NCBI GenBank assembly: GCA_002733105.1
Contig: NVUI01000008.1
Coordinates: 1-36,148, forward strand
DNA length: 36,148 bases
Reading direction: 5' to 3'
From: Methylophaga sp.
GTDB taxonomy: Bacteria; Pseudomonadota; Gammaproteobacteria; Nitrosococcales; Methylophagaceae
The notes under the pieces were generated by a model. It ran no database searches, was not told where the DNA came from, and saw nothing but the letters and a program-made list of their open reading frames with translations. Each line of letters begins with the position of its first letter. The stretch's first letter is position 1. Below are positions 14,051 to 35,010 of this stretch, piece by piece. The translations under genes and the position numbers were made by a program.

Positions 14051-14620
14051 TTAATTAACCCACTGTCTAGCTTCAAACACACCATCCAGCTTTGTATGAA
14101 ATAAGTGATTAGCGTAATTACTGATTGTTTTAACAGATATAGCTAAAATAATTTCCAATATATGATGCTCCGTATATCCTGCAGCAAGAAACACATTAAC
14201 ATCATCGTTTGTAGGTAACCCCCGGGTGTTAAACATCACTCTAGTGAACAAAGTCAGCGCAGCTAGTTTGACATTGGGAATGGTAGTGTCATTACGGATA
14301 GCATCCGTCACTTCAATAGGTACTTTTGACATATTATCTGCCACAAAGCTATGTGCTGACATACAATAATCACATCCGTTTGCACGGCTTATGGCCAGAA
14401 AAATAACCTCCTGCTCTACCGGGTTAAATTTAGACTCATCTCTAAGAAGTTGATAGCCATGACTATAGCTGTCCAATAGTATTGAAGAGTTAGCCATCGC
14501 CGCATACATATTTGGCACAAAGCCCATTTTCTGTTTTGTATTATTTAATAAATCCTTTACTCTAGGCTCCGAATTTGTCATTGTTCTAGGTTGCAAAGTT
14601 AATTTATATTCTGCGTTCAT
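14051..14620 (-). CDS. Carboxymuconolactone decarboxylase / AhpD-like alkylhydroperoxidase family protein
   Basis: LAISRANGCDYCMSAHSFVADN (CxxC...H signature). Start trimmed to ATG 14620 (MNAEYKL), preceded by AGGAG; the track start overlaps the upstream glutaredoxin gene. Confidence 0.88.
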   Translation of the reverse strand: MNAEYKLTLQPRTMTNSEPRVKDLLNNTKQKMGFVPNMYAAMANSSILLDSYSHGYQLLRDESKFNPVEQEVIFLAISRANGCDYCMSAHSFVADNMSKVPIEVTDAIRNDTTIPNVKLAALTLFTRVMFNTRGLPTNDDVNVFLAAGYTEHHILEIILAISVKTISNYANHLFHTKLDGVFEARQWVN

Positions 14621-14681
14621 TGTCGTACTCCTAAAAATAAATGATGGTGCAAGATTAATTATTCCAACCCTGCAATCATTG

Positions 14682-14930
14682 TTAATTGATGCCAAACATC
14701 GTTGAGAGAGCCTTGTAGCCGCCGATCGAAACGCCATCAATAAATATTTGTGGCACAGTCCGTTGACCTGACCTGTTCACAACATCAATTGCAATCCGAT
14801 AATCTTGCTCGATAAATACCTCAGCATAAGACAATTGTTTTTGATCTAATAACTGCTTGGTTTTTTCACAATTGACACAGTTTTTCATTGAATAAATCTC
14901 TATGTTTGGCATTGTGTTCACCTTTATCAT
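14682..14930 (-). CDS. Glutaredoxin (CxxC)
   Basis: IEIYSMKNCVNCEKTKQLLDQKQLSYAEV...[21 protein letters not shown]. Start may be the internal MPNIEIYS. Confidence 0.9.
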   Translation of the reverse strand: MIKVNTMPNIEIYSMKNCVNCEKTKQLLDQKQLSYAEVFIEQDYRIAIDVVNRSGQRTVPQIFIDGVSIGGYKALSTMFGIN

Positions 14931-14943
14931 CCTGTTAACTTAT

Positions 14944-15333
14944 TTACTTACTCACACCCACCTCATACCAAGGTGTTGGATTGATTGGGCAGCGGTAACG
15001 AAAGCCATTATCAGTAATGGTGACCCTAGTTTTAATGGTTTCCCCTACTTCAATAGATGTTTTTTCTAAAAGCTCATGAGTAACAGCATCTTGCAACCAA
15101 AAACCCACCAACTTATTTGACTTGTTTTCTACAATAAATTCATAGGTACCAGGCTTTAATCCTGCTAATGTTTCTTCAGCGGAAAAATAACCGTTGTATT
15201 CCTCCAAATGTATCGTTGTGACACCATCTACTGTCTGTGGTACATCAGCAAAAGAAACACCTGTTGCTAAAATAACTATCCCAAAAAATGCACTGGCTAA
15301 TATATTGCTAATTTTCATTTCTTTAATCCTCAT
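14944..15333 (-). CDS. Small periplasmic protein, cupredoxin-like fold suspected
   Basis: Signal peptide then short beta-rich domain (LKPGTYEFIVENKSNKLVGFWLQ...YRCPINPTPWYEVGV). No complete Cu-ligand set seen. Confidence 0.6.
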   Translation of the reverse strand: MRIKEMKISNILASAFFGIVILATGVSFADVPQTVDGVTTIHLEEYNGYFSAEETLAGLKPGTYEFIVENKSNKLVGFWLQDAVTHELLEKTSIEVGETIKTRVTITDNGFRYRCPINPTPWYEVGVSK

Positions 15334-15448
15334 TAATCTGCATCGTCATTATTAACGACTGTCGACTATTATAAAGATTGAAAAAAGATGATATATGCCA
15401 TAGAATCCATATTTAATGTCATTTAGTATTTTTTTGTGGTGAATTAGA

Positions 15449-16363
15449 ATGGATGTATTAAGTGCTATATTAAAGTTGTTACGCTTGAAAGCCAGCGTAT
15501 ATTTTCATGCTAATTTTTGTGGCGCTTGGTCTCTTCATCCACCTGAATCTAATAAAGCTACATTCCACATCATTCAACGTGGTACCTGTTGGCTGCATAT
15601 GGCTGATGATTCCGATCCCGTTACATTGCGTAGTGGTGATCTGATTTTTTTCCCTAGAGCAACCAAACATATAATTACAGACACGAGTGAATCACCACCT
15701 AAATCGCTAGAACTAGGCATCATTTCAGATCCTGATAGTGTTGGTCCGACAACCAAAATTATCTGTGGACACTTTGAGTTTGAAAGCAACTTGGTTAACC
15801 CTATCCTAACGGCCCTACCAGATGTCATCCATATAAGAAGTGATGATCCAGAAAATGCTGTCTGGTTAGATTCCCTTATCGGTTTTATTTATCGAGAAAC
15901 CGAAAGTGACTCTCTCGGGTCCACAGCTGTCGTTGATAAACTATGTGATGTTTTATTTGTACAAATTATTAGAAGCTGGATAAACAAAAAAGAAACCGAC
16001 CAAGGCTTTCTAGCAGCCTTGGCCGATCCACAGCTATATCAAGCTTTGCAACAATTTCATTCCTCACCTCATGCTGCCTGGTCAGTTGAACTATTAGCCG
16101 CAAAAGCAGGCATGTCTCGCTCTGCTTTCGCAAAACGTTTTCAATCTATCATGGGGATAACGCCCATGTATTATGTTGCCCACTGGCGGATGCAACGTGC
16201 TCATGAGATGTTAGTCACCAGCAATAAATCCATTGCTCAAATTGCCGAATACTTTACTTATCAATCAGAAGCATCGTTTAGAAAGGCTTTTAAACAACAT
16301 ATGGGGATCCCTCCCGGTGCTGTTAGAAAATCTAAAGAAAAAAATATGCTAGTCAGTGTCTAA
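15449..16363 (+). CDS. AraC family regulator with N-terminal cupin sensor
   Basis: Cupin part HIIQRGTCWLHMADDSDPVTLRSGDLIFFPRATKHII; C-terminal AraC HTH WSVELLAAKAGMSRSAFAKRFQSIMGITPMYYVAHWRMQRAHEML...IAQIAEYFTYQSEASFRKAFKQHMGIPPGAVRK. Confidence 0.94.
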   Translation: MDVLSAILKLLRLKASVYFHANFCGAWSLHPPESNKATFHIIQRGTCWLHMADDSDPVTLRSGDLIFFPRATKHIITDTSESPPKSLELGIISDPDSVGPTTKIICGHFEFESNLVNPILTALPDVIHIRSDDPENAVWLDSLIGFIYRETESDSLGSTAVVDKLCDVLFVQIIRSWINKKETDQGFLAALADPQLYQALQQFHSSPHAAWSVELLAAKAGMSRSAFAKRFQSIMGITPMYYVAHWRMQRAHEMLVTSNKSIAQIAEYFTYQSEASFRKAFKQHMGIPPGAVRKSKEKNMLVSV

Positions 16364-16488
16364 TGCTAGCAGGTCTTAACATTCATCTAATTTTTAACAT
16401 TCAAAATAATTTTATCAATTTAGTTATTCGTTATATAAAACAGTAAAATATTTTTACTACTCAACCAGTAACCAATTCAAGCCTACGT

Positions 16489-17241
16489 TTAGGCTGCTTT
16501 GATAATTTTTTCAGCAAAATTCTCAGACATTCTGATTGCCTTAACAAGGCGTTCAGGCATTGAGTTCAAAGGGAAATGACCTGACTCTAAAGTAACAACC
16601 TGCTCTACTTTCCAGTTAGAAATCATTTGCTGTTGCAGCGACAAAGTCAGCACTTTATCTAATCTTGCTTTAATGTAATATTTGGGCACAGAGCCAAATT
16701 TTTCTTCACTTAACTCAGCTACTGCCATAAAGGGCTGCGTTGCTTGTTTCATTGCAAATGTAGGGATCAGTTTAGCTATTTTTTTCTTATCGTCTATGTC
16801 ATGAAGAAAAAGGTTTGATACATCTTTGTCACTTAGAGTTGCATAGCTCTGATCTTCAGAAAAAATAATATTGGGTAATAATTCACCCTGGGTATCACTC
16901 TGCATCAAACTTAATGGTGAGTCTCCTGTTTTAGGCAACATTGCCGCCACATAAATAAGTTGTTCAATATCTTCGGGGATCAATTCTGCTGCTTGAGAAA
17001 TAACAGCGCCAGCTAATGAATGTCCAACAAGAATTACTTTTCCATTGATTTGATTAATTGTGTCAATAACTCGCTGAACATAAGCATCCATAGTCACTTC
17101 CTCGATCGGCTCATGGCTTTCTCCATGTCCTGGCAGATCAATGGTAGTAACACTATTTTCTTCACTAGATAGCAGTTTAACCACATCATCAAATTCACGT
17201 GCATTACCCCACGCACCGTGTACTAATACATAATTTTTCAT
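16489..17241 (-). CDS. Alpha/beta hydrolase (esterase/hydroxynitrile-lyase-like)
   Basis: YVLVHGAWGNAREFDDV, nucleophile elbow VGHSLAG, ESGHFP near the C-terminus. Confidence 0.9.
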   Translation of the reverse strand: MKNYVLVHGAWGNAREFDDVVKLLSSEENSVTTIDLPGHGESHEPIEEVTMDAYVQRVIDTINQINGKVILVGHSLAGAVISQAAELIPEDIEQLIYVAAMLPKTGDSPLSLMQSDTQGELLPNIIFSEDQSYATLSDKDVSNLFLHDIDDKKKIAKLIPTFAMKQATQPFMAVAELSEEKFGSVPKYYIKARLDKVLTLSLQQQMISNWKVEQVVTLESGHFPLNSMPERLVKAIRMSENFAEKIIKAA

Positions 17242-17277
17242 TTTTAAATCCTCATATAAATTTAGTTTTAGCAGGCT

Positions 17278-17688
17278 CTAAGAGATGGCTGCCATAATTT
17301 CTTCATTTGTCATTGCTCTACCATCAAAATTCCAGGCTCCATCTACCGTATGAATAACATTCACATAGATATTGTCTCTAGGTTGTTTGCCGCCAGACAG
17401 TGCTTCAATAATGTTGGTTGCTTCTTCAAAATAGCCCAATTGAACTTCTCTTGAAGCAAAAGCAAATGAAGGAACCTTCCACTCGACCCAGGCCCCAGAA
17501 AATTCTTCTCCGCCTGAAAATGTTGTGGTTTTTGGCAGCACATGAACCGTCGCGGTGATATTGGGTGTCATCACTTTATTAGCTGTTAACCCATGATGCT
17601 TTAACATCGCTGCTGATAATTGTGCAACAGCTTGTTTTTCTGAACCGGCAGGTATAACACCCTCTGTAAGCGTTAATGTAAGTGGCAT
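17278..17688 (-). CDS. Tautomerase superfamily-like protein (Pro-1)
   Basis: MPLTLTLTEG start exposes Pro-1; length and DNIYVNVIHTVDGAWNFDGRAMTNEEI resemble tautomerase family members. Confidence 0.7.
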   Translation of the reverse strand: MPLTLTLTEGVIPAGSEKQAVAQLSAAMLKHHGLTANKVMTPNITATVHVLPKTTTFSGGEEFSGAWVEWKVPSFAFASREVQLGYFEEATNIIEALSGGKQPRDNIYVNVIHTVDGAWNFDGRAMTNEEIMAAIS

Positions 17689-17774
17689 AATATTTTCCCT
17701 TTATAGATTTAGTTATTGTTTAATTAAATGTTTATGCTTATTCGCAATGTTTCTGTACAGCGGTTATAATAAAT

Positions 17775-17844
17775 ATAACGACCGTGATATTATTAAAGCA
17801 TAACGATCGTTATATTGTCAACAATAAAATAACGATCGTTATTT
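17775..17844. promoter_or_regulatory. Cluster of three palindromic operators in the tautomerase/TetR divergent promoter
   Basis: ATAACGATCGTTAT exact at 17800-17813 and 17829-17842 (extended to 18-bp perfect palindrome AAATAACGATCGTTATTT, 17827-17844); degenerate ATAACGACCGTGAT at 17775-17788. Confidence 0.85.
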
Positions 17845-17856
17845 ATGGAGAGTTTA

Positions 17857-18441
17857 ATGAACGATTTGCCGACAAAAAAACAGCAGACTTATCAACGCAT
17901 TCTTGATGCTGCCAGTCAGAGTTTTCGAAGCCATGGCTATGCCGGCATTGGAGTAGATGGTATTGCTAAAAAGGCCGGTGTAACATCCGGAGCTTTTTAT
18001 GCACATTTAGGCTCTAAAGATAAGGCATTTAATGCAGCACTCGAAATAGGTCTTGGTGAGGTTATTGCTGCTGTACCCAAATTTCAACAAGATGCTGGTT
18101 CGAACTGGGTTGAAGTATTTGTTAACTATTATCTTGGCCAGCCACATATAGAAGATCTTGCTTGTGGTTGTGCAATGACAACTCTTTCACCTGAAGTTGT
18201 GCGTACAGATCCAGAAATACATGCTCTATATGAAGCAAAGATGAAACAAATCGTAGCTTTAATCGCAGAGGGGCTTGAAGGGAATTCAACAGATGAATGC
18301 ACCGCTAGAGCATGGTCACTCATTGGCATATTGATTGGTGGGCTAACGATGATAAGAGCCGTCAAAACACGCAAAACAGCAAAGCAGATCACATCATCAA
18401 TATTGGTTGCGGCCATTAATATCGCCGGAAAAACCAAATAA
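17857..18441 (+). CDS. TetR/AcrR family regulator
   Basis: KKQQTYQRILDAASQSFRSHGYAGIGVDGIAKKAGVTSGAFYAHLGSKDKAFNAAL. Start at 17857 chosen because GGAG precedes it; the track uses 17845. Confidence 0.94.
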   Translation: MNDLPTKKQQTYQRILDAASQSFRSHGYAGIGVDGIAKKAGVTSGAFYAHLGSKDKAFNAALEIGLGEVIAAVPKFQQDAGSNWVEVFVNYYLGQPHIEDLACGCAMTTLSPEVVRTDPEIHALYEAKMKQIVALIAEGLEGNSTDECTARAWSLIGILIGGLTMIRAVKTRKTAKQITSSILVAAINIAGKTK

Positions 18442-18574: not shown

Positions 18575-19111
18575 TTATTTAACACTGTATCTTGGGGTGA
18601 TGTGTTGTGGGCAATTCCTATCCCACGTTTCAACTTTGATGATAAAGGCACGTTCAACCTTGCCTTTGTAATCTGAGACAGACAATTGGCTGATCAGCTG
18701 TTGATCATCCTCTATCACCTCAGCAGTACCCCATATTTTGACTCTGCTTCTGTTTGGATAATCCATCAGAAATAGACTCACTTTGTTATTGTCTTCTAAA
18801 TTGCCATATGAAATGTATTGTCGATTACCTCTAAAATCAGCAAAACCTAGAGTATGATCATCTATTACTTTTAGAAAACCTTTGGGTCCACCACGATGTT
18901 GGATATAAGGCTGTCCATCACTATTCACGGTGGCCATATAAAAAGAGTCACGCTGAGCAATAAATGCAGCCAATTCAGGTGTAATCATATCTGGCCACCA
19001 GTGTTTTTCAATCTTGGCATAAGACTCTCTAGAGCCATTTTGTGTTTGGATCTTTTTCACACTCTTGGTAAAAGCTATATCACTTGCATACTGTTTCATG
19101 ATGTTCTCCAT
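18575..19111 (-). CDS. Pyridoxamine 5'-phosphate oxidase family / FMN-binding protein
   Basis: FIAQRDSFYMATVNSDGQPYIQHRGGPKGFLKVIDDHTLGFADFRGNRQYISYGNLEDNNKVSLFLMDYPNRSRVKIWGTAEV. Confidence 0.9.
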   Translation of the reverse strand: MENIMKQYASDIAFTKSVKKIQTQNGSRESYAKIEKHWWPDMITPELAAFIAQRDSFYMATVNSDGQPYIQHRGGPKGFLKVIDDHTLGFADFRGNRQYISYGNLEDNNKVSLFLMDYPNRSRVKIWGTAEVIEDDQQLISQLSVSDYKGKVERAFIIKVETWDRNCPQHITPRYSVK

Positions 19112-19200: not shown

Positions 19201-20220
19201 CTATTTGGCTGGAATAAAGTTTCTAATATAGTCGGCAACCACTTCACTATCTTCTTCTAAAACAAAGTGGCCCGTATCCAAAAGATGGAATTCTAAATTA
19301 TTTAGATCACGCTTATATGGATGAGCACCTGCCGCTGGGAAAATTTCATCTTTTTGTCCCCACACAATTAATGTAGGTGGTTGGTGTTTACGCATATAAG
19401 CCTGCCATGCTGGATATAACGGTGGATTTGAACCATAGCTGTAGAAAAGCTGCAGCTGAATGGCATTGCTACCTTCACGATCTAATAACGGCTGCACATG
19501 GTTCCATGTATCAGGGCTAATGTCTTCAACATTACGCACCCCGTTGGTGTACTGCCATTTTGTTGCACCTTCGGTTAGTAGAAAGCGTAGTGCTGCATCA
19601 TTAGTCATATTAGGTTGTTTATACGCTGCTTTGACGTTTTTCCACCAATCATTGTCTAAGCCTTGGTTTACTGCATCACGATCTTGCCAATACGCTTTAA
19701 TAGGCTCCCAAAAATTATTGTTGATGCCTTCAACATAAGCGTTACCATTTTGAATAATCAATGATTCAATACGTTCTGGATGTTTTGTAGCAATACGGAA
19801 ACCAATAGGTGCGCCATAATCCATCATGTATAGGCTGTATTTTTTCAGACCCACTTTATTGATAAATTTATCAACAACATTAGCTAGATTATCAAAACTA
19901 TAGTCGAATTTATCGACTGCGGGCATTGAACTGTAGCCATAACCCGGGTAATCCGGCGCTATGAGATGAAAACGTTCCGATAACGCTGGGATCAAATCAC
20001 GAAACATATGTGATGAGGTAGGGAAACCATGCAATAACAATATGGTTGGATTTTGGGGATCGCCAGCTTCACGATAAAAAATATCTAAGCCATCAATGAC
20101 AGTTGTTTTATATTTAACGTCGCTAAATGATTCTGTAGCAAAGGCAGCTGAGAATAATGCAAAATTAAAAACCATACTGGCTAACACTAATTTTAGAATT
20201 TTTATTGCTTGAATTTTCAT
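19201..20220 (-). CDS. Exported alpha/beta hydrolase with Asp nucleophile (haloalkane dehalogenase / epoxide hydrolase-like)
   Basis: Signal peptide [47 protein letters not shown]; nucleophile [14 protein letters not shown]-terminal [12 protein letters not shown]. Confidence 0.9.
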
Positions 20221-20243: not shown

Positions 20244-20507
20244 TTAAATTAAAGGTTGAGTTTGGCTTAACTCGAATTCACTGCTACTAAGCAATTTAGA
20301 TAACTCGGTAAATCCTCCAATCGGCTTTTTATTAATAAAGATTTGAGGAACTGTACGTTGTCCGCTTTGAGCTAAAAGTTGTTGTGCCTTCTGTCTATTT
20401 TTAACAACATCAACTTCTTGATATGAGATGCCTTCACGCGCTAATAAATCTTTAGCCGCATGGCAATAGTTACAGCTAGGGCTGGTCAATATTTGAACCT
20501 GATTCAT
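20244..20507 (-). CDS. Glutaredoxin (GrxC-like, CxxC)
   Basis: [31 protein letters not shown]...[21 protein letters not shown]. Confidence 0.93.
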
Positions 20508-20546: not shown

Positions 20547-20562
20547 TGCAGAAGACGTGCCA
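20547..20562 (-). promoter_or_regulatory. Sigma54 (-24/-12) promoter upstream of the glutaredoxin/dehalogenase operon
   Basis: Minus strand TTGGCACGTCTTCTGCA: TGGCAC-N5-CTGCA with GG-N10-GC spacing. Confidence 0.82.
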
Positions 20563-20651
20563 ACACAACCATAGAATATATAGTCGTTTATATTCAGTAT
20601 GTTATAATTATTTTGTGATATTACTGCTGAATGTGACAGAGGATACAGATA

Positions 20652-20681
20652 ACGATATATCGTTATATGACGATATTATGT
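20652..20681 (-). promoter_or_regulatory. Upstream activator sequence (two sites) for the sigma54 activator
   Basis: Perfect palindrome ATAACGATATATCGTTAT at 20649-20666 plus degenerate site ACATAATATCGT (20670-20681, minus strand) centred 18 bp further upstream. Confidence 0.75.
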
Positions 20682-20733
20682 TTTTATAATTTAATTATAA
20701 TTCAAAACTATTCTATATAGAATGCTGGTGATG

Positions 20734-22173
20734 TCACGCTGCAGATGTAGAGCGCCTAACACCTAATTTACTCATCCTAGAGCGCAGAGTATTGGGATGC
20801 ATTTCTAAAATAGAGGCCGCCCCCTGTTCACCAGATATTCGCCAATCTGTGTATTCAAGAACTTGAATAATGTAGCCTTTCTCCATAGCAGCAAATGTTT
20901 TCAAATTAGCTGCAACATTTGCATTATTTTCATCGATCAGCCTGTCATGCAACGTCAACACATTGTTGTTCGAAAGGATCACAGCACGCTCGATAATATT
21001 TTCTAATTCACGTACATTCCCTGGCCAAGAATATTGACTCAATTCATCCATGACTTTCTGAGGGATAGCCTCAATATTTTTAGCCATTTTTTTAGCAAAT
21101 CTATCAACAAAAAATTGGACAATTATCGAAATATCTTTACCCCGCTCTCTTAGTGGAGGCAGAGTAATTGGAAACACGTTGAGTCGGTAAAATAAATCCT
21201 CTCTAAAATTACCTTTTGCTACCATCGCTTTTAAATCTCTATGAGTAGCCGCAATCATTCTTACATCAACTGAAATAGTGGTTGAGCCGCCTAAACGTTC
21301 AAACTCCCCTTCTTGCACTACTCTTAATAACTTAACTTGAAGATCTAACGAGAGCTCGCCAATTTCATCTAAGAAAATAGTACCGCCATCAGCTAATTCA
21401 AACCGACCAATTCGTCGTGCAACAGCACCCGTAAAGCTACCTTTTTCATGACCAAATAGTTCACTTTCTATTAAGTTAATCGGTAGTGCTGTGCAATTTA
21501 CCTTTACTAATGGCCGTTCTTTTCGTTGACTTAAGTTATGAACAGAACGAGCAAATAACTCCTTACCTGTACCCGTTTCACCTAACAATAAAACGGTTGT
21601 ATCTGTTGGTGCAACTTGTTCTACTTGATGAAATACTTTTTTCAATTTTGGACTTTGACCTAAAATCTCTTCAAAATTGCTATTATGTTTTATCTCTTCT
21701 TGCAAGTAGGTATTTTCTGCTTCAATACGCTCTTTGAGCTGACTTATTTCTGCTAAGGCTTGCTTTAATTTAGCTTCAGATTGTTTTATCTCTGTTACAT
21801 CTTGGAACACAACAACCGCGCCGATGATTTCACCATTATCTATAATAGGTGTGCTGCTGTAATACACTGGAAAACTGGTACCATCCTTACGCCAAAACAC
21901 CTCATCACGTACTTGATGATGCACTTCACCATCTTTCAATGCGGCATAAATAGGACATTCCTCACGGGGGTAAGGGTTACCATCTACACGACTATGATGA
22001 TGCTGTTCATGTCCTGCTTCACCCAGCGTATCTTCAACACTCCACCCTGTTATTTCAACTGCAGCAGGGTTAACAAAGGTGATCTTGCCATTTTTATCTA
22101 GACCATAAATACCTTCACCAGCAGCATTTAATATCAGTTCATACCTTTCTTTTATTTGATCAACTTTATTCAT
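20734..22173 (-). CDS. PAS-containing sigma54-dependent transcriptional activator (bacterial enhancer-binding protein)
   Basis: PAS domain [33 protein letters not shown]+ [59 protein letters not shown]; Fis-type [30 protein letters not shown]. Confidence 0.96.
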
Positions 22174-22200
22174 GGCTTCACCTACATAGAACAGGAAATT

Positions 22201-22230
22201 TAAATATATCGTTATTCCACGGTATATCGT
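22201..22230 (+). promoter_or_regulatory. Upstream activator sequence (two sites) for the sigma54 activator, divergent copy
   Basis: TAAATATATCGTTATTCCACGGTATATCGT; ACGGTATATCGT at 22219-22230 and half-site TATCGT at 22207-22212, centred 18 bp apart. Confidence 0.72.
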
Positions 22231-22321
22231 ATTTAACGTAAATGCAAGCCTATCAATACTTGAAAGACAAAAACCACCTATCTGACTGTTTTATATTGAC
22301 TTATCTTTATTTTTCACCTGT

Positions 22322-22337
22322 TGGCACATCATCTGCA
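22322..22337 (+). promoter_or_regulatory. Sigma54 (-24/-12) promoter upstream of the DUF1348/OYE/GST genes
   Basis: TTGGCACATCATCTGCA: TGGCAC-N5-CTGCA with GG-N10-GC spacing, 45 bp before the ATG at 22383. Confidence 0.83.
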
Positions 22338-22382: not shown

Positions 22383-22796
22383 ATGAATATTAAACCACCA
22401 TTACCCCCGTTTAATCATCAGACGGCTACAGAAAAAGTGCGCTTGGCAGAACAAGGATGGAACTCTCGTGATCCGCTAAAAGTCGCTCTGGCCTACACCA
22501 TGGATAGTGAGTGGCGTAATCGAGCTGAAATATTCTCAGGACGAGACAACATAATCCAATTTCTTACCAGAAAATGGCAAAGAGAACTTGATTATCAGCT
22601 AAAAAAAGAACTGTGGTGTTTTGATGACAATAGAATTGCCGTGACGTTTAACTACGAATGGCATGATGATTCAGGACAATGGCATCGTTCCTACGGTAAT
22701 GAACTGTGGGAATTTGCACCAGATGGTCTGATGCAGCGCCGAATAGCCAGTATCAATGACAAACCTATCACACTTGATGATCGCGAAATATTTTAA
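22383..22796 (+). CDS. NTF2-like / DUF1348 family protein
   Basis: [64 protein letters not shown]...[26 protein letters not shown]. Confidence 0.9.
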
Positions 22797-22889: not shown

Positions 22890-24008
22890 ATGGAAACAAT
22901 CATAAAAAGGTATCAGCACGTGAATAGTCAAACAGTTTTAGAACAAGATTTATTTAGCCCAGTTCAAATTGGGCCATATCAGCTGAATAATAGAATAGTG
23001 ATGGCACCATTAACAAGGTGTCGTTCTGATGATGATAATGTACCCACAGAAATGAACCGGATTTATTATCAGCAGCGTGCTACAGCTGGGTTGATTATCA
23101 CAGAAGGGACTCAGATCTCTCCCCAAGGTGCAGGATACCCAAATACACCGGGTATATATAACGATCAGCAAGTGGAAGCTTGGAAAAGAATCACTGATTC
23201 CGTACATGCACAAGGCGGCCATATATTTTTACAGTTATGGCATGTTGGTCGTGTCAGCTATCAAGGGATCCAACCAAATGATCAGGCACCCGTAGCCCCT
23301 TCATCAATAAAAATAGCAGGTGATTATAAGCAACCGCATGCCTTAAAATTATCTGAAATTGATGATATTCTTTATGACTATAGAAATGCTGCGAAAAACG
23401 CACTTGCAGCTGGTTTTGATGGTGTTGAAATACATGCTGCAAATGGCTATTTAATTGATCAGTTTTTGCGCGATGGCAGTAATAATCGAACAGATCAATA
23501 TGGTGGTGATTATAAAAATAGAATACGATTCTTATTCGAAGTACTTCATGCCGTAACACATATATGGGGCAATGACCGTGTTGGAGTACGCTTATCTCCC
23601 ACCAACCCATTTAACAGCATGTCTGATTCTAACCCTGAAGAATTATTTAAATATGTTGTTAAGCAATTAAACTCATTTAATTTAGCTTATCTCCATATGG
23701 TAGAAGGGGCTCTCTCGTTTTCTGATACAACGACTGAAATACCTGCATTTGATAGTCGCAGCCTACGTGATATTTACCAAGGCACTTATATGGCTAATCT
23801 TGGATATACCAAACAATCTGCTAACCAAGCGATTCAAAATGGTAAAGCTGATCTCGTCTCGTTTGGTGACTTGTTCATATCAAACCCTGATTTACCTGAA
23901 CGTTTTTTACACAATGTTCCTTTAAATAAAACAAATATGGACACTCGATATGGCGGTACAGAAAAAGGTTATATTGATTATCCACAATTTGACTTCTCTT
24001 ATGTCTAA
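22890..24008 (+). CDS. Old yellow enzyme family NADH:flavin oxidoreductase (N-ethylmaleimide reductase-like)
   Basis: LFSPVQIGPYQLNNRIVMAPLTRCRSDDDNVPTEMNRIYYQQRATAGLIITEGTQISPQG; LQLWHVGRVS; GFDGVEIHAANGYLIDQFLRDGSNNRTDQYGG. Confidence 0.95.
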   Translation: METIIKRYQHVNSQTVLEQDLFSPVQIGPYQLNNRIVMAPLTRCRSDDDNVPTEMNRIYYQQRATAGLIITEGTQISPQGAGYPNTPGIYNDQQVEAWKRITDSVHAQGGHIFLQLWHVGRVSYQGIQPNDQAPVAPSSIKIAGDYKQPHALKLSEIDDILYDYRNAAKNALAAGFDGVEIHAANGYLIDQFLRDGSNNRTDQYGGDYKNRIRFLFEVLHAVTHIWGNDRVGVRLSPTNPFNSMSDSNPEELFKYVVKQLNSFNLAYLHMVEGALSFSDTTTEIPAFDSRSLRDIYQGTYMANLGYTKQSANQAIQNGKADLVSFGDLFISNPDLPERFLHNVPLNKTNMDTRYGGTEKGYIDYPQFDFSYV

Positions 24009-24123: not shown

Positions 24124-24831
24124 ATGAATAATCAACCATTCCACCTCGTTGCACACGTGCTATGCCCTTATGTACAACGTTCTATTATTCTTTTAAAAGA
24201 GAAAAACATCACCTATAACCGCACTGACATTGATCTTGGCAATAAACCTGAGTGGTTTAAACGTATTTCTCCTCTAGGTAAAGTCCCTGTATTAACCATA
24301 AATGAAGATAGATCCCTGTTTGAATCTACTGTTATTTGTGAATACATCAATGAAGTAACGCCTAACTCTTTGCACCCGCAAGACCCTTTAGAAAAAGCCT
24401 ATCACCGGTCTTGGATTGAATTTGGTTCAGGCATACTCAACAATATCTCAGGACTTTATAATGCACAGAATAAAGATGAGTTTGATGCTAAACGTCTAGA
24501 AATAAAAACAAAATTCCAGCAAATTGAGCAAGAAATAATGGGGTCATCTTATTTTTCAGGTGAAGAATTCCATTTAATTGATGCTGTCTATGGCCCTATT
24601 TATCGTTATTTTGATATTTTTGATCTTATTCTAGATTTAGAAATTTTTGATGCTTTACCTAAAGTCAGCGTATGGAAAGAGGCATTACAGAAACGACATT
24701 CTATCCAACAAGCTGTATCCATAGAATATCCTCGTTTGCTACTGAATTTTTTGATAAACCGCCATAGTTATATTTCAGATTTAATTTTAAATTCACAAAC
24801 AATACTAAATACTGAGGGCGAAGTAATATAA
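24124..24831 (+). CDS. Glutathione S-transferase family protein
   Basis: FHLVAHVLCPYVQRSIILLKEKNITYNRTDIDLGNKPEWFKRISPLGKVPVLTINEDRSLFESTVICEYINEV. Confidence 0.93.
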   Translation: MNNQPFHLVAHVLCPYVQRSIILLKEKNITYNRTDIDLGNKPEWFKRISPLGKVPVLTINEDRSLFESTVICEYINEVTPNSLHPQDPLEKAYHRSWIEFGSGILNNISGLYNAQNKDEFDAKRLEIKTKFQQIEQEIMGSSYFSGEEFHLIDAVYGPIYRYFDIFDLILDLEIFDALPKVSVWKEALQKRHSIQQAVSIEYPRLLLNFLINRHSYISDLILNSQTILNTEGEVI

Positions 24832-25161: not shown

Positions 25162-26304
25162 ATGGCCAATAACTTAATAATCGTCATCCTCACCGTTGGT
25201 ATGATAGCTTCTCTTCAAAATACGTTTGCGGCTGACGCGCAAGCAAATGTCGGTGAAAAGCCACCGGCAATGCCGGTCGAAATCACCATTGTTAAGCAGC
25301 AATCCCTTCGATTATGGAAAGAGTTTTCTGGCCGCCTAACAGCTGTAGACTATGTTGAAATACGACCTCAAGCAACAGGACTTATTACTGAAATAAAATT
25401 TGAGGATGGCCAGTTTGTCACTAAAGGCGACATTTTATATGTCATTGATCCTCGCTCACTAAAAGCCATTGTTGCACAGAAAAAAGCAGAGTTAATTACA
25501 GCACAAAACCGTCATGATTATGCTGAAAAAGAATATACAAGAGCGGTAGATTTAATCCATAAAAAGATGGTTGCAGAACAAGTTATGGATACACGACTAA
25601 ATGACAAATTAGTGGCTAATTCAGCGATAAAACACGCTAGAGCCGAGCTGTCGGAAGCAGAAATAAACCTGAGCTATGCCTACATCAAAGCCCCTATTTC
25701 AGGCCTGATTAGTCGTACAGAACTCACTGAGGGCAACTTAGTCTCGGCAGGCCCTAACGCGCCACTATTAACATCCATTGTCTCAAACAAAACTATTTAT
25801 GCTGATTTTGAAGTAGATGAGCAAACTTATTTGCGTTATAGAATAGAAGCAACCGGAGAACATGGTGCAACCTATGAAAATCCTGTTGAGTTGAGAATAC
25901 AAAATGGTGATTGGATGTTCCCTGGAAAAATCCATTCATTTGATAACAAAATAGACCCAACATCAGGGACTATTCGTGCTCGTGCAATATTTGATAACTC
26001 AGATGGGAAGCTATTGGCAGGCATGTATGCACGCTTGAAACTTGGTAGTGCTAATGAACATGAACAAGTTTTAATAAGCGAACGAGCTATCGGTACCGAT
26101 CAAAACCGAAAATTTGTTTATGTGGTAAACGACCAAAACAAAACCACCTATCGCGAAGTGCAACTTGGTGACAGTATGGATGGAAAACGACTTATTCACT
26201 CAGGCCTGATGGCTGGAGATAAAGTGATTGTGCGTGGCCTGATGCGGATTCAGCCCGATATGCTCGTTGATCCACAAGAGCCTACAACAGGTAATGTTCA
26301 ATGA
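25162..26304 (+). CDS. RND efflux periplasmic adaptor (membrane fusion) subunit
   Basis: RLWKEFSGRLTAVDYVEIRPQATGLITEIKFEDGQFVTKGDILYVIDPR; INLSYAYIKAPISGLISRTELTEGNLV; GLMAGDKVIVRGLMRIQPDMLV. Confidence 0.95.
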   Translation: MANNLIIVILTVGMIASLQNTFAADAQANVGEKPPAMPVEITIVKQQSLRLWKEFSGRLTAVDYVEIRPQATGLITEIKFEDGQFVTKGDILYVIDPRSLKAIVAQKKAELITAQNRHDYAEKEYTRAVDLIHKKMVAEQVMDTRLNDKLVANSAIKHARAELSEAEINLSYAYIKAPISGLISRTELTEGNLVSAGPNAPLLTSIVSNKTIYADFEVDEQTYLRYRIEATGEHGATYENPVELRIQNGDWMFPGKIHSFDNKIDPTSGTIRARAIFDNSDGKLLAGMYARLKLGSANEHEQVLISERAIGTDQNRKFVYVVNDQNKTTYREVQLGDSMDGKRLIHSGLMAGDKVIVRGLMRIQPDMLVDPQEPTTGNVQ

Positions 26305-29300
26305 GTTTTTCAAGCCACTTTATTGACAGGCCTATTTTAGCGAGTGTGATTTCACTGGTAATCTTTGCGTTCGGTTTAGTCGCAATGTTTCAATTACCTA
26401 TTTCTGAATACCCTGAAGTTGCACCTCCTTCCGTGATTATTAACGCCTCTTTTCCTGGCGCTAATCCATCTGTTATTTCTGAAACCGTTGCTACACCGTT
26501 AGAAGAGCAAATAAACGGTGTAGAAAACATGTTGTATATGAACTCGTTAGCCTCAACAGACGGCCAACTCACCATGACAGTGACCTTTGCTATAGGCACC
26601 GATCCTGACTTATCACAACAACTCGTGCAAAACCGGGTTTCCCAAGCGCTACCGAGATTACCTGAAGTCACTCGTCAATTAGGTGTTACCGTCACTAAGA
26701 GCTCTCCAGACTTAACTATGGTAGTGCATCTACGCTCTCCCAATGAACGTTATGACATGCTCTATTTACGAAACTATGCCACTCTGCATGTACGTGATCA
26801 ATTAGCTAAAATTGCTGGAATTGGCCAAGTCAGATTATTTGGTTCGGGCGATTACGCCATGAGAATTTGGCTGAATCCCGATAAAATTGCTGAGCATAAT
26901 ATGTCGCCTAATGAGGTTATTGATGCCATTCGTGGGCAAAATATCCAAGTAGCCGCAGGCATCATTGGTGGCCCTCCTTATAAAGATAATATTGAGCTAC
27001 AGTTGCCTATTAATGTGCAAGGTCGATTAAAAAGTGTTGAAGAGTTTGAGCAGATCCTCGTTAAGCGTGGCAGTAATGGTGCTGTAACACGACTAATTGA
27101 TGTTGCCCGTGTTGAATTAGATGCTCAAAGTTATGGGCTACGCTCTTTATTAAATAATCAACCCGCGGTTGCTATTCCCATTTTTGCTGCGCCCGGTGCT
27201 AATGCTCTGGATATTTCTGATAATGTCCGTGCAACCATGGCAAAATTAAAGCAATACTTTCCAGAAGATGTTGATTACAGCATTGTTTATGACCCGACCA
27301 TATTCGTTCGCAGTTCAATCAATTCGGTCATCATCACTTTGCTAGAAGCGATCGCCCTTGTGGTATTTGTAGTGATCCTATTCCTACAAACTTGGCGTGC
27401 CTCTATTATCCCTTTTCTTGCCGTGCCCGTTTCTATTGTTGGTACCTTTGCCTTTATGTACCTACTTGGCTTTTCAATCAATGTACTGTCATTATTCGGT
27501 TTGATATTGGCGGTGGGGATCGTGGTGGATGATGCCATCGTTGTTGTTGAAAATGTAGAACGAAATATTCGCGAAGGTAAAACACCGCGTGATGCCACTG
27601 TGCAAGCAATGAAAGAAGTCACCAGCCCCATTATTGCCACCTCATTAGTAGTTGCCAGTGTATTTATTCCTATTGCCTTTATTAGTGGTTTATCTGGCCT
27701 GTTTTACCAACAATTCTCCTTAACAATTGTAATTGCAACGTTCATCTCAACATTGAATTCACTCACACTAAGCCCTGCTTTATGTGCATTATTATTACGT
27801 GCACCTGATGCCCCAAAAGATAAACTATCCAAAGTAATGCAGTTTCTTTTTGGCTGGGGCTTTAATCTCTTTAATAAAGTATTTGATAAAAGTCAGCGTG
27901 GATACACAAAAAGCGTTCGTGTATTTGCCTCTCGAAAAGTCATCATGATGGTGATTTTTTCAATTCTTGTTGGCCTCACAGTGCAAAGCTTCAAACTAGT
28001 GCCACCGGGTTATATCCCCTCACAAGACAAACAATATCTTATTAGCTTTGCTCAACTGCCCACCGGTGCAACGCTGGATCGAACAGAAGATGTGATGCGT
28101 AAAATAGCCGATGCTGCACTTGCTGAAGAAGGTGTTGTCAGCGCCGTACAATTTCCGGGTCTATCTGTTAATGGATTTGTTAACTCAGCCAGTGCTGGCA
28201 TTGTATTTGTGACTTTAGAAGACTTTGACAAACGTACAACGCCTGAACTCAGTGCTAATGCCATTGCGGGTCGATTACAGCAAAAATACAACGCCATTCC
28301 TGAAGCCTTTATTGCCATCTTCCCACCACCACCAGTCCGAGGCCTTGGCACCACTGGTGGCTTTAAATTACAAATCCAAGATCGTGCAGATCAAGGTGAA
28401 AAAATATTAGATGATGTGGTTAATGAAGTGAAGGCCAAAGCCTATCAAAACCCTGCCTTGACTCAAGTTTATTCAAACTACAACGTCAATGTACCTCAAC
28501 TATCTGCCAATCTTGATCGTACTAAAGCAGTGCAGCTGGGGATCCCTATTGAAGAAATATTCCGCACCATGCAAATCTATCTTGGCTCTTTATATATTAA
28601 TGACTTTAATCAGTTTGGCCGAACCTACCAAGTGATTGCACAAGCTGATAAAGAATTTCGCTCTACGCCACAAGATATTACCCGCTTACAGGTAAGAAAT
28701 AGCGAAGGAAAAATGGTGCCTTTAGGTGCAGTTATCAATGTAGAAGAATCCTTCGGCCCTGATGTGGCCATGCACTACAATGCCTATCGTTCAGCTGATT
28801 TAAATGGCAGTCCTGCTCCTGGGTACTCCTCAGGTCAGGCACAACAAGCTATCACCGAAATCCTTGAAGAAACCTTACCCATGGGAATGGAATTTGAGTG
28901 GACCGAACTCACCTACCAACAAATTTTAGCAGGCAATACAGCACTGTACATCTTCCCTTTATGTATCTTTTTGGTGTTCTTAGTACTAGCAGCACAATAT
29001 GAAAGTCTCGCCCTACCGCTTGCTATTATTCTTATCGTCCCGATGAGTATTTTGTCCGCCATGATCGGGGTTTACCTCTCTGGAGGCGACAACAATATTT
29101 TCACCCAAATAAGTCTATTTTTACTGGCAGGATTAGCCTCTAAAAATGCGATATTGATTGTTGAATTTGCACATAACTTAGAACACCAAGGCCGCAGCAC
29201 ATTAGAAGCCGCTATCGAAGCCTCACGGCTAAGACTACGCCCTATCCTAATGACATCTTTTGCATTTATTATGGGTGTATTACCACTGGTCGTGAGTACT

Positions 29301-29465
29301 GGAGCCGGGTCAGAAATGAGACAAGCCATAGGTATTGCCGTATTTTCAGGTATGTTAGGCGTCACATTTTTTGGCTTAGTTTTTACCCCAGTCTTTTATG
29401 TCGTATTCCGAAAGATAGAGATATTTTTTACAAAAGCTAAAAGCAATGAAATAAAAACACAGTAG
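26301..29465 (+). CDS. RND efflux transporter permease (HAE1/AcrB-like)
   Basis: FIDRPILASVISLVIFAFGLVAMFQLPISEYPEVAPPSVIINASFPGANPSVISETVATPLEEQINGVENMLYM; GIVVDDAIVVVENVERNI; 4-bp overlap with the adaptor gene. Confidence 0.97.
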   Translation: MSFSSHFIDRPILASVISLVIFAFGLVAMFQLPISEYPEVAPPSVIINASFPGANPSVISETVATPLEEQINGVENMLYMNSLASTDGQLTMTVTFAIGTDPDLSQQLVQNRVSQALPRLPEVTRQLGVTVTKSSPDLTMVVHLRSPNERYDMLYLRNYATLHVRDQLAKIAGIGQVRLFGSGDYAMRIWLNPDKIAEHNMSPNEVIDAIRGQNIQVAAGIIGGPPYKDNIELQLPINVQGRLKSVEEFEQILVKRGSNGAVTRLIDVARVELDAQSYGLRSLLNNQPAVAIPIFAAPGANALDISDNVRATMAKLKQYFPEDVDYSIVYDPTIFVRSSINSVIITLLEAIALVVFVVILFLQTWRASIIPFLAVPVSIVGTFAFMYLLGFSINVLSLFGLILAVGIVVDDAIVVVENVERNIREGKTPRDATVQAMKEVTSPIIATSLVVASVFIPIAFISGLSGLFYQQFSLTIVIATFISTLNSLTLSPALCALLLRAPDAPKDKLSKVMQFLFGWGFNLFNKVFDKSQRGYTKSVRVFASRKVIMMVIFSILVGLTVQSFKLVPPGYIPSQDKQYLISFAQLPTGATLDRTEDVMRKIADAALAEEGVVSAVQFPGLSVNGFVNSASAGIVFVTLEDFDKRTTPELSANAIAGRLQQKYNAIPEAFIAIFPPPPVRGLGTTGGFKLQIQDRADQGEKILDDVVNEVKAKAYQNPALTQVYSNYNVNVPQLSANLDRTKAVQLGIPIEEIFRTMQIYLGSLYINDFNQFGRTYQVIAQADKEFRSTPQDITRLQVRNSEGKMVPLGAVINVEESFGPDVAMHYNAYRSADLNGSPAPGYSSGQAQQAITEILEETLPMGMEFEWTELTYQQILAGNTALYIFPLCIFLVFLVLAAQYESLALPLAIILIVPMSILSAMIGVYLSGGDNNIFTQISLFLLAGLASKNAILIVEFAHNLEHQGRSTLEAAIEASRLRLRPILMTSFAFIMGVLPLVVSTGAGSEMRQAIGIAVFSGMLGVTFFGLVFTPVFYVVFRKIEIFFTKAKSNEIKTQ

Positions 29466-30038: not shown

Positions 30039-33000
30039 TCACGGTGAATTTTTCGTTGCTGTCAACAAATCAAATACGATACGAGAAAAACTTTTTGCCC
30101 TAGCTGTATCCGATAAAATTTGCATCATCTGATTTTTATGAGCCTCACTACTATCCAAAACGGCACCATCCAGTGCTTTTGAGAAATGACCTAGCATTGC
30201 CTGTTCAGCTGAATTATTGGCAATTTGGCTCATGACCAATTTATTTTCACTGATTTTATCTCGGATGGTATAAGCATAATTCACCATATCTTTATCGGTG
30301 AGTTCATCGGTAATAAATAACTCATTTAAGCGGTTTATAATCTGTGACAGAAACTCTTCTTTTTTATCTTTGGCTTTTGCTGTTCCAGCTTCATTACCTG
30401 GCACAAGATAGTCTGCTACATCCTCTTTGAGTCTGATGTCTTGTTGGCGAATAACTGAAAGACGGTAATGGCTTAAGACTACATTGTCCAAATCTATTTC
30501 ATCATCAATTTCAATTGCTTCACGCAACATGGGACGAAGATTTCGGGCATATAAACTCAGTTTTTCTAATTCTTTATTATCGTAATCAACAATCTGTGAC
30601 ATAAATTCATAAAAACGAACAAACGTACCCAAATCCTTTTTAAATATTTCCAATGCATCTTTTTCTTGTTTACAGTCTTTAAAACTATTTTCAGCATTAG
30701 CAATCAACACTGCATCACCGATTTTCTTAGTACGCTCAAACATTTTTTTAGCTTGTTTAAATGCCTCCACAGCTGATTTATAACGTTTTTGCCAACGCTC
30801 TACTGCAGGTTTACATATGTTAGCAATAGCGGCGTTATTTTTGCTTTTAACGAAGAAAGCATCACAAAACTGTTCCACTTCTTGCCACTGAAATATACCC
30901 AAAGCCCGTAACTTATCGAATAAATCAAAAATCAGGTCCGGATCAGATACATCCTCTAATTCAGCTGTTTGGTAATACGGCTGGAATGCCTCTAATATTT
31001 CATCTGGTTCATTGAAGAAATCTAATATAAATGTACCCGTTTCAGCTTTACCCGGGAAAGTACGATTTAAACGTGAAAGTGTTTGTACACACTCCACTCC
31101 GCCCAGTTTTTTATCTACATACATCGCACATAATTTAGGTTGGTCAAAACCCGTTTGAAACTTGTTGGCGACGAGCATTACTTGATAATCATCACTATTA
31201 AAGGCTTTACGCATATCTCGGCCTTTAAGGTTTGGATTCATATTCGTTTCAGTAAATTTCTTACCTATTAAAGACTCAGAATTGGGATCTTTATCGTTAA
31301 ACTCAACTTCACCCGAAAACGCCACCATCGCATGAATCTTTTGGTAGCCTTTTTCAATAATATATTTATCAAAAGATAATTTGTAACGCACCGCTTCTTT
31401 ACGCGAGCTAGTCACCACCATCGCTTTAGCTTGGCCACCTAGCAGCCCCATCACATTATTTTTAAAGTGCTCAACAATCACCTGCACTTTCTGGCTGATA
31501 TTGTAGTCGTGCAAACGCACCCATTGATTAAGTTTTACCTTGGCTTTTTTGCTCTCTACCTGTTCATCTCTGCCATCAATTTTCATGGCTAGGTTATAAG
31601 CCACCTTGTAGTTGGTATAATTCTTCAGCACATCTAGGATAAACCCCTCTTCAATAGCCTGTCGCATACTGTAAACATGATAGGCTTCGGGCTTATTAGT
31701 TTTTGAAGGTTGCTCATCAGGTTTAGGCAGGCGGCCAAACAACTCTAGGGTTTTGGTTTTAGGTGTGGCCGTAAAGGCTAAATAACTTAAGTTGCTGGAG
31801 GCTCGACGTGATGCCACGGCGGCATCTAAAATTTCATCACTAGAGAGTTCTTCATCACCCTCTTTTGACTCTATCATCAACACTTCTTTTAACTGTCGAG
31901 CCGTGCTGCCCGTTTGTGAACTGTGCGCCTCATCGGCAATAACGACATAGTTTCGCTCTTTCAAACTAACACTGTTTTCAATGGCTTTTAAAACATAGGG
32001 AAAGGTTTGAATAGTGACAATAATAATTGCTTGTGAGCTTTCCAAGGCACTAGCAAGCTTTTCTGATTTAGAACCACTGCCCTCTTCTCGGTTGATCCTA
32101 CCTACCACCCCCTCCACCGAAGTGAACTGAGAAATTGTTTCTTGTAACTGGTCATCAAGCACCGTTCTATCAGTAACCACAATCACCGAATCAAACAGCT
32201 TATTCCCCTCAGCCGTGTGAATGGCCGATAACTGATGTGCTGTCCATGCAATAGAATTAGATTTGCCGGACCCCGCACTGTGTTGTATCAAATATTTATG
32301 GCCTGGGCCTTCCGTACGGGCGGCATCCACCAGCTTATTAACCACATCCCACTGATGATAACGCGGAAATATCAAGGTCTCTTTCTTAAACTTACGCCCT
32401 TCCCAATCTTCTTTTTCTTCAATCTGTAAATGAACAAAGCGGGCTAAAATATTTAATAGATTATCCGGCTGTAATACCTCATTCCACAAGTAATCCGTAG
32501 CATACTGATTAATATCTTCCGGCACATCATTGCCGGCACCACCTTCTTTAGTGCCTTTATTAAACGGCAAAAAGAAGGTGTTCTCTCTTTCTAAGCGAGT
32601 CGTCATATACACTTCATACTGGCTAACGGCAAAATGCACTAGTGCACCGCGTTTAAAAGTTAATAAAGGCTCCGGCTTTTTAGTGGCAGGGTCAATAGCA
32701 AAACGGGTGGTTTTATATTGTCTAATGGCATTTTGCACCGCTTGTTTAAATTCAGACTTTAATTCCAAGGTGACTATCGGCAAGCCATTAACAAACAATA
32801 CCAAGTCAATGCGCCATGCTTTAGCTTTTTTACCTGTTGCCGCTAACTCTTCTTCATTCGCCCATGGTGAATACACCAGTTCAGGCACCACTCGCAAACG
32901 GTTCTGTTTATAACGCGCCAAGGTATCAGGGTTTAAATCATGTTCAGGCTTAAACTGGCATAAGGTGAATCGCGTGCCGCGATCACGCAGCTCATGGCGT

Positions 33001-33290
33001 AATACACCCAAAGTACCATAAGTGCGCATCTCTTTATTGGCTGTATTAGGGTCGGCTTTGTTTAACTGTGAAGCAACACGTTCTAAAAACTGCTGCTCAG
33101 GATTATTAGGATATAAACCGCAAAACTTTTGCCATTGCTCATCCTGAGTGTCTTTAACAAAACCCAAAACATCTTCTTCATACAATGCTAGTTCACGATT
33201 ATAGTGTTCAGATTTACCTAGCAACCAACCGTTAGCAATGAGTTGACGAATCATATCATTCTGGAATGTAAGTTCATTTGTGCTTGCCAC
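30039..33290 (-). CDS. hsdR: Type I restriction endonuclease subunit R
   Basis: N-terminal nuclease region IDLVLFVNGLPIVTLELK; Walker A QHSAGSGKSNSIAWTAHQLS; DEAH VVIADEAHSSQTG; helicase YLAFTATPKTKTLELFG. Confidence 0.96.
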   Translation of the reverse strand: MASTNELTFQNDMIRQLIANGWLLGKSEHYNRELALYEEDVLGFVKDTQDEQWQKFCGLYPNNPEQQFLERVASQLNKADPNTANKEMRTYGTLGVLRHELRDRGTRFTLCQFKPEHDLNPDTLARYKQNRLRVVPELVYSPWANEEELAATGKKAKAWRIDLVLFVNGLPIVTLELKSEFKQAVQNAIRQYKTTRFAIDPATKKPEPLLTFKRGALVHFAVSQYEVYMTTRLERENTFFLPFNKGTKEGGAGNDVPEDINQYATDYLWNEVLQPDNLLNILARFVHLQIEEKEDWEGRKFKKETLIFPRYHQWDVVNKLVDAARTEGPGHKYLIQHSAGSGKSNSIAWTAHQLSAIHTAEGNKLFDSVIVVTDRTVLDDQLQETISQFTSVEGVVGRINREEGSGSKSEKLASALESSQAIIIVTIQTFPYVLKAIENSVSLKERNYVVIADEAHSSQTGSTARQLKEVLMIESKEGDEELSSDEILDAAVASRRASSNLSYLAFTATPKTKTLELFGRLPKPDEQPSKTNKPEAYHVYSMRQAIEEGFILDVLKNYTNYKVAYNLAMKIDGRDEQVESKKAKVKLNQWVRLHDYNISQKVQVIVEHFKNNVMGLLGGQAKAMVVTSSRKEAVRYKLSFDKYIIEKGYQKIHAMVAFSGEVEFNDKDPNSESLIGKKFTETNMNPNLKGRDMRKAFNSDDYQVMLVANKFQTGFDQPKLCAMYVDKKLGGVECVQTLSRLNRTFPGKAETGTFILDFFNEPDEILEAFQPYYQTAELEDVSDPDLIFDLFDKLRALGIFQWQEVEQFCDAFFVKSKNNAAIANICKPAVERWQKRYKSAVEAFKQAKKMFERTKKIGDAVLIANAENSFKDCKQEKDALEIFKKDLGTFVRFYEFMSQIVDYDNKELEKLSLYARNLRPMLREAIEIDDEIDLDNVVLSHYRLSVIRQQDIRLKEDVADYLVPGNEAGTAKAKDKKEEFLSQIINRLNELFITDELTDKDMVNYAYTIRDKISENKLVMSQIANNSAEQAMLGHFSKALDGAVLDSSEAHKNQMMQILSDTARAKSFSRIVFDLLTATKNSP

Positions 33291-33313
33291 TGCATTACTT
33301 CCTTATTTTTATT

Positions 33314-34300
33314 TTAGCGAAGAGAATGAATCTCAGCTTCTAATTTTATTAACGTTTCAATAATGTTTTCAAAACTAGGTTTGTCACCAAATAACATTTC
33401 TTGCATGTTTTTATAATCTGCTTCCAGTGCTGCAATATGATGCGTTGACGGTTGTAATAACAGGCCGGTGAAGGTGGCACTATCATAATTTGCCCAGCCA
33501 CTTGGATAGAATTTCTTTTTAAACGCTACCACATCACTCAATAAACGCTGCTGCTCCATTGCCTTTTTATACATTCCCGTTTCTACCAATTTATAGACAT
33601 CATAATAATGGCGTGCATATCGATGGGGTAAAACTTTATCGTTTGGTCGATGCGCTTCGGCATGCAGAATAGTTAACTTCTCCCAAAAGGTACGTGCAAC
33701 AACAATAGTAGGAACAGCTACACTGGCTTGTTGGAAAAGGTCTGGAAAGTATTGCGCCGCATAAGGCTGAATATCACAATACTCCATTGGCAACATGGCT
33801 GCTAACGGTCCAATCTCTAACCTAACCTGAGGTCTTAAATATTCAGAATAAAATGCCTTAGGGTAGGTTATATTAATGGTCTGTGGATCTTCCACATCAA
33901 TGGCCAGATCACAAATATCACCCATTAGTGCAATTAGGCGAGGTAACAAGGTAGTAGCAATAAACGCCTGTGCATCTTCATTGATATTTTGATTGAATTG
34001 ACTTTGTTTGGTTTTGCTACGCTTTGCGGCGGCAGGATCTTCACCTGTTAACTGAGTCCAATCTAAAATCAGATCAATATCTTCAGAAAACCGCTCAATA
34101 ACGCCATAACACTTTGAAAGACTGGTGCCACCTTTAAAGCGTAAATAGCGTTGTAACTCCTCATCGTCAAACACATGAAACAACACCCAACAAATCCAAA
34201 AGACTTTTTCTGCAGCAGCGGCAGTAATACTCATAGCATTGGCCGTTTCGCCAAACAACTCCTTTCGTTGTTGCTCACTCAGCTGCGCAACCTGCTTCAT
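33314..34300 (-). CDS. AbiEii-type nucleotidyltransferase toxin
   Basis: LRFKGGTSLSKCYGVIERFSEDIDLILDW (GGTSL...SEDIDL NTase motif). Confidence 0.92.
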   Translation of the reverse strand: MKQVAQLSEQQRKELFGETANAMSITAAAAEKVFWICWVLFHVFDDEELQRYLRFKGGTSLSKCYGVIERFSEDIDLILDWTQLTGEDPAAAKRSKTKQSQFNQNINEDAQAFIATTLLPRLIALMGDICDLAIDVEDPQTINITYPKAFYSEYLRPQVRLEIGPLAAMLPMEYCDIQPYAAQYFPDLFQQASVAVPTIVVARTFWEKLTILHAEAHRPNDKVLPHRYARHYYDVYKLVETGMYKKAMEQQRLLSDVVAFKKKFYPSGWANYDSATFTGLLLQPSTHHIAALEADYKNMQEMLFGDKPSFENIIETLIKLEAEIHSLR

Positions 34301-34968: not shown

Positions 34969-34978
34969 TTAACACAAC

Positions 34979-35010
34979 CTGTCCGAAAAAGAAGTAGCTA
35001 TTTCGGACAG
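34979..35010. promoter_or_regulatory. Perfect inverted repeat directly upstream of the antitoxin gene (candidate autoregulatory operator)
   Basis: CTGTCCGAAA (34979-34988) - N12 - TTTCGGACAG (35001-35010). Confidence 0.75.

Follow-up and report, generated by a model that had tools for sequence, protein, structure and literature searches.

A putative two-sided sigma54 regulon around a PAS-type activator in Methylophaga

The window analyzed here, a stretch of 36,148 nucleotides from Methylophaga sp. (contig NVUI01000008.1), carries a sigma54 activator gene between two outward-facing operons, raising the question of whether a single activator could drive both of them. The gene (positions 20734 to 22173, minus strand) encodes a bEBP of 479 amino acids in which Pfam identified PAS, AAA+, and Fis-type HTH domains (PF00989, PF00158, PF25601, and PF02954). 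The PAS domain spans residues 9 to 126 approximately, the AAA+ domain residues 170 to 336, followed by the lid, and the HTH residues 428 to 469. The AAA+ sigma54-interaction domain matched PF00158 at 6.5e-74, and the HTH scored 27.0 bits against PF02954, for which the cut-off is 22. When the translation was read, the ATPase motifs, LDEIGE, and GSFTGA were found to be unbroken; the protein thus has the Walker motifs and GAFTGA-type loop in the AAA+ domain that characterize bEBPs, and the locus has the corresponding -24/-12 promoters with upstream enhancer-type sites. An AlphaFold2 model was confident, with a mean pLDDT of 84, and Foldseek matched its AAA+ part to structures of FleQ, ZraR, NtrC1, and DmpR. 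No name was assigned to the protein by NCBIfam, as every equivalog cut-off was missed.

Two sigma54 promoters, both 16 bp long with the arrangement GG-N10-GC, face outward from the activator gene. The promoter of the glutaredoxin (Grx) operon, TGGCACGTCTTCTGCA, lies at 20547 to 20562 on the minus strand, and that of the DUF1348 operon, TGGCACATCATCTGCA, at 22322 to 22337 on the plus strand. Using a weight matrix, these were scored at 16.8 (the best in the window) and 16.6, respectively, with the next-best sigma54 site in the 36-kb window reaching 13.4. Both had been placed at these positions by the sequence-only reading, whose letters differed trivially in one extra leading T. Each promoter is accompanied by an element composed of a proximal palindrome, ACGRTATATCGT, and a half-site, TATCGT, located 18 bp further out. 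On the left, the putative proximal activator site ACGATATATCGT (20652 to 20663) is 103 bp from the promoter center and is followed by the distal half-site ACATAATATCGT (20670 to 20681, minus strand, given in promoter orientation); on the right, the proximal site ACGGTATATCGT (22219 to 22230) is 105 bp from the promoter center, with the distal half-site TAAATATATCGT at 22201 to 22212 on the plus strand. Both distances and the 18-bp offset agree exactly with those first proposed; the distal site had been described as a degenerate palindrome, for which a conserved half-site must be substituted.

Only two exact ACGRTATATCGT palindromes exist in the 2.06-Mb, 22-contig genome bin, and both are at this locus. 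When each flank was Markov-shuffled 20,000 times, a sigma54 site of equal quality arose at a frequency of at most 1.5e-4 and a comparable palindrome at a frequency of at most 1.3e-3, while the combination of a promoter and a palindrome, correctly placed, did not arise for either flank. A recount by eye returned the earlier figure of 21 matching positions between the two 30-bp elements. Almost all of these matches lie within the operator core or AT-rich filler, so that two sites for one protein suffice as an explanation, and a mirror-image duplication was rejected. A possible IHF bend site, TAACATACTGAAT (20592 to 20604, minus strand), lies at -42 and is a weak match in the window. Near -42 a TAAC-like block is conserved, which is IHF-like in the promoters of several relatives and matches better there than in the window. 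Over 11 promoters, the summed best mismatches to the IHF-like pattern were 14, compared with a mean of 20.3 after shuffling, and 1 in 300 shuffles was as low.

The genes behind the two promoters are those listed in the sequence-only reading, as their Pfam and NCBIfam assignments bear out. The left operon, on the minus strand, begins with a glutaredoxin-3-like protein (20244 to 20507; PF00462), followed by an alpha/beta hydrolase with a hydrophobic N terminus (19201 to 20220; PF00561) and a PNPOx-fold flavoprotein (18575 to 19111; PF01243). The hydrolase resembles haloalkane dehalogenases and scores below the cut-offs of the models for that family. The right operon, on the plus strand, begins with a DUF1348 protein of the NTF2/SnoaL-like type (22383 to 22796; PF07080, 1.8e-62), followed by an old yellow enzyme (OYE) resembling N-ethylmaleimide reductase (22890 to 24008; PF00724; PRK10605 at 8.5e-111, just under the cut-off) and a glutathione S-transferase (GST) family protein (24124 to 24831; PF13409). 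The OYE and GST genes, which follow gaps of 93 and 115 bp, are putative cotranscripts of the DUF1348 gene. By their predicted functions, the target genes look like a set for the detoxification of electrophiles or oxidants. A search of the literature for this gene set returned no match, and DUF1348 was scarcely mentioned; a fungal DUF1348 protein conferred resistance to cercosporin, a photo-oxidant toxin, when expressed in sensitive Neurospora (PMC4608573).

Beyond the left operon, the island from 14051 to 18441 encodes a CMD/AhpD-like protein, an AraC/cupin_6 regulator, an esterase, two small unnamed proteins, and a TetR protein, whose predicted functions fit the theme of detoxification. Homologs of the AraC and CMD proteins were also found near the activator and PNPOx genes in relative G002, and an AraC homolog adjoins the activator in G032. 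The DUF1348-OYE-GST operon is followed directly by an HlyD/RND efflux pair (25162 to 29465). The type I restriction-modification genes HsdR, HsdS, and HsdM lie at 30039 to 36057, continuing to about G000:C16:38886, with an AbiEi/AbiEii pair between HsdR and HsdS.

Orthologs of the activator were identified in relatives G016 (91%), G012 (83%), G003 (84%, with one in-frame stop), and G032 (71%), and as a fragment in G002; the named copies place this group near Methylophaga/Piscirickettsiaceae. The Grx-side promoter is retained in G016, G012, G003, and G002, and the DUF1348-side promoter in G016, G012, G003, and G032. The DUF1348 gene is encoded divergently on one flank in G016, G012, and G003, and the opposite flank carries the hydrolase gene, together with PNPOx where the contig extends that far. 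G032 has the DUF1348 side only, and G002 has the hydrolase side only. Individual genes have moved between the operons, as OYE is in the left rather than the right operon in G012 and Grx is in the right rather than the left operon in G032, each still behind one of the two promoters. That targets switch sides and stay under one of the two promoters argues strongly that both promoters serve a single response.

With few exceptions, the element in these relatives reads TATCGT-N6-ACG(A/G)(T/A)AT(A/C/T)TCGT. The palindrome-to-promoter distance is 101 to 106 bp at 10 of the 11 promoters and 93 bp at the other, which is one helical turn less, and the distal half-site is 18 bp out at all of them. The composite TATCGT-N6-ACGDWATHTCGT was used as a query to scan 59 relatives, counting matches with no more than one mismatch; those with two mismatches occurred at control level. 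Such composites adjoin the activator in G000, G016, G012, G003, G032, and G002 and an activator remnant in G028. The sole other match, in G044, adjoins ribosomal genes; no intergenic sigma54-type site was found in its vicinity, and it was judged to be due to chance. In G028 (L162, 1913 to 2850), the element and the sigma54 promoter are intact, and only a C-terminal remnant of the activator survives, next to an IS110-type transposase; the promoter precedes a 223-amino-acid, secreted-looking protein without a Pfam match, and a similar protein of 225 amino acids follows the activator in Methylomonas (L053). In G016, the region upstream of the activator gene contains an additional inverted repeat, GTAAACGAT-N8-ATCGTTTAC, which is perfect (L043, 9632 to 9657).

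The stop in G003 and the remnant in G028 indicate that loss of the activator does occur in the genus, and rpoN was not found in the genome bin of the window organism. A rival reading to which both observations lend weight is that the system is in decay or silenced in this lineage, with sigma54 lost and the promoters persisting as relics. However, the activator is intact here, being one of at least six proteins in the bin with strong sigma54-activator domains, and the whole rpoN locus is missing, as a binning gap would give: neither hprK, the neighbor of rpoN, nor DNA of the locus was found in the bin, in searches that were run without a positive control. As the bin is 82.5% complete and rpoN is present in 31 of 36 relatives, the absence of rpoN is likely to reflect a gap in the bin, and decay of the system is considered improbable.

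To identify homologs of the activator more widely, genomes were scanned, yielding 80 named loci from many phyla. In 66 of them, the activator gene is adjoined by a sigma54-like site with a score of 12 or more. When the 100-bp upstream stretch was searched for ACGA-N4-TCGT, allowing up to one mismatch, at least one site was present in 46 of these 66 loci (4.5 in shuffles) and at least two in 31 (0.2 in shuffles), with neighboring sites mostly 17 to 23 bp apart. The operator was found to vary with the recognition helix. TLRSRM is paired with ACGA..TCGT operators, and six Bacteroidota homologs have TLEARM in its place; the four of these with a readable promoter (L056, L058, L065, and L067) have GCCAA..TTGGC-type sites, the operator being GCCAATATATTGGC, and no ACGA..TCGT. 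Similarly, a KRW-type helix end (L093 and L099) is paired with ACGC..GCGT, and RRW (L127) with TGCA..TGCA. As the operator changes with the recognition helix in distant homologs, the sites are tied to the activator's own HTH.

This covariation bears on whether the palindromes could instead be operators of another local regulator, namely, the TetR protein (17845 to 18441) or the AraC/cupin protein (15449 to 16363), with the promoters still being sigma54 dependent and the activator using other sites. Both regulators are encoded within the same gene island, and TetR proteins also bind short palindromes. However, wherever a relative has the activator, the sites accompany it, no TetR or AraC homolog is present beside the activator in the local open reading frame lists of G016, G012, and G003, and in distant loci the operator tracks the recognition helix of the activator itself, making this explanation, like decay, improbable. 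That the sites are a chance resemblance in AT-rich intergenic DNA, where loose patterns do arise randomly and two-mismatch matches reach control level, is the least credible explanation, being refuted by the shuffle frequencies and the conservation across genera.

We therefore return to a compact, two-sided sigma54 regulon, in which the PAS activator is predicted to act at two matching elements and to drive both flanking operons, and assign this reading a probability of roughly 0.9. The earlier proposal that the activator probably drives both operons gains from the conservation of the elements with the activator, their absence elsewhere in the related genomes, the retained spacing, and the match of operator to helix. 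Following general sigma54 biology, activator dimers would bind the enhancer elements on both sides of their own gene. Upon perception of a signal by the PAS domain, an AAA+ ring would assemble on the element, as NorR does on its enhancers (PMC2941729), and a DNA loop, possibly helped by IHF, would bring the ring into contact with the sigma54 polymerase, at a distance of about 100 bp. ATP hydrolysis would then open the sigma54 complex at both outward promoters, yielding glutaredoxin, the alpha/beta hydrolase, and the PNPOx flavoprotein from the left and DUF1348, the old yellow enzyme, and the GST from the right. As the right-hand element is located 28 to 57 bp upstream of the ATG of the activator gene, the activator probably also regulates its own expression.

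Comparisons with known systems revealed partial counterparts. NemR is a TetR-type repressor acting at a housekeeping promoter. The NemR-nemA system resembles the window regulon in that an OYE/N-ethylmaleimide reductase is induced together with detoxification genes, and differs in its regulator, which is not a sigma54 activator. NorR of Escherichia coli is a one-component activator whose AAA+ oligomer assembles on several enhancer sites (PMC2941729); it shares with the window activator a sensory domain, several enhancer sites, and stress-defense targets, but has a GAF domain with nonheme iron rather than PAS, three sites, a single operon, and specificity for NO (PMC2941729). The sigma54 regulator of a thiocyanate cluster (PMC5744179) was rejected as a match; as a member of a two-component system, it represents a different design.

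Judged by gene context, the closest characterized relative is CynF, the cyanate activator. Mutation showed CynF to be essential for cyanate-induced expression of cynABDS in Pseudomonas pseudoalcaligenes CECT5344, and, like the window activator, it is sigma54 dependent, of the Fis type, and divergent from a target operon with a sigma54 promoter (PMC6627978). The CynF targets are cyanate uptake and cyanase, whereas the window has two target operons of redox and xenobiotic enzymes. Homologs of the window activator at 49 to 52% identity are divergent to an operon for an NMT1-like binding protein, an ABC transporter, and cyanase, and carry comparable operators, double or triple. No cyanase, NMT1, or ABC genes are present at the window locus; cyanase is present at homolog loci L106, L112, and L113. 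In a tree of 81 homologs, the window protein was placed with detoxification-type loci, apart from the clade of cyn-type activators.

The detoxification-type loci occur in Bacteroidota, Gemmatimonadota, Myxococcota, and Methylomirabilota and carry some of the alpha/beta hydrolase, PNPOx, and DUF1348 genes, with an isochorismatase-family hydrolase in several. A second group adjoins NMT1-like/ABC-transporter operons, several with cyanase and DUF1348. DUF1348 adjoins cyanate-operon genes near a CynF-like activator in L106, L113, and L127 (cyanase being seen in L106 and L113), a gene context that suggests a link of DUF1348 to cyanate or isocyanate chemistry. In a third group, from Colwellia and Pseudoalteromonas, a CcoG/FixG-like protein follows the activator, sometimes with a COX3-like protein. 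Both genes follow the activator homolog in L071 and L061 (Colwellia and an acidobacterial metagenome-assembled genome), and open reading frames of CcoG length occupy the same place in Pseudoalteromonas.

Across 36 to 82 homologs compared, the PAS domain contains a constant EVFWRKDG motif and invariant H55, H59, and C73, with H60 nearly so, and this His/Cys type is common to the window activator and the cyn-type homologs. The PDB sequence matches shown in alignment lacked the His/Cys cluster, and fold comparison returned FixL, NifL, LOV, and other domains at similar scores, so that neither the PDB nor the Foldseek search with the PAS domain singled out a cofactor. The cluster may be a metal site or a reactive thiol, and the signal that it would sense is most likely a reactive electrophile, an oxidant, or a cyanate-like small molecule. 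Tentatively, and at somewhat less than even odds, the domain could represent an uncharacterized class of sensor in several phyla, with His55, His59, possibly His60, and Cys73 forming a metal-binding or thiol-reactive site that detects a cyanate-like or electrophilic molecule, and with one operator architecture coupled to varied sets of targets (electrophile detoxification, the use of cyanate, and CcoG/cytochrome oxidase genes).

A one-component sigma54 activator and its regulon are a known design, while the sensor family and the regulon appear uncharacterized. The His/Cys PAS sensor and the readable covariation of helix and operator are the parts of most interest, the latter serving as a code by which the specificity of Fis-type HTHs can be read. 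The locus provides a base-exact model of operator and promoter for a widespread, apparently uncharacterized family of sigma54 activators, from which targets can be predicted. In the predicted regulon, DUF1348, PNPOx, and a dehalogenase-like hydrolase, all poorly characterized, would be joined with OYE, GST, and glutaredoxin in one stress response.
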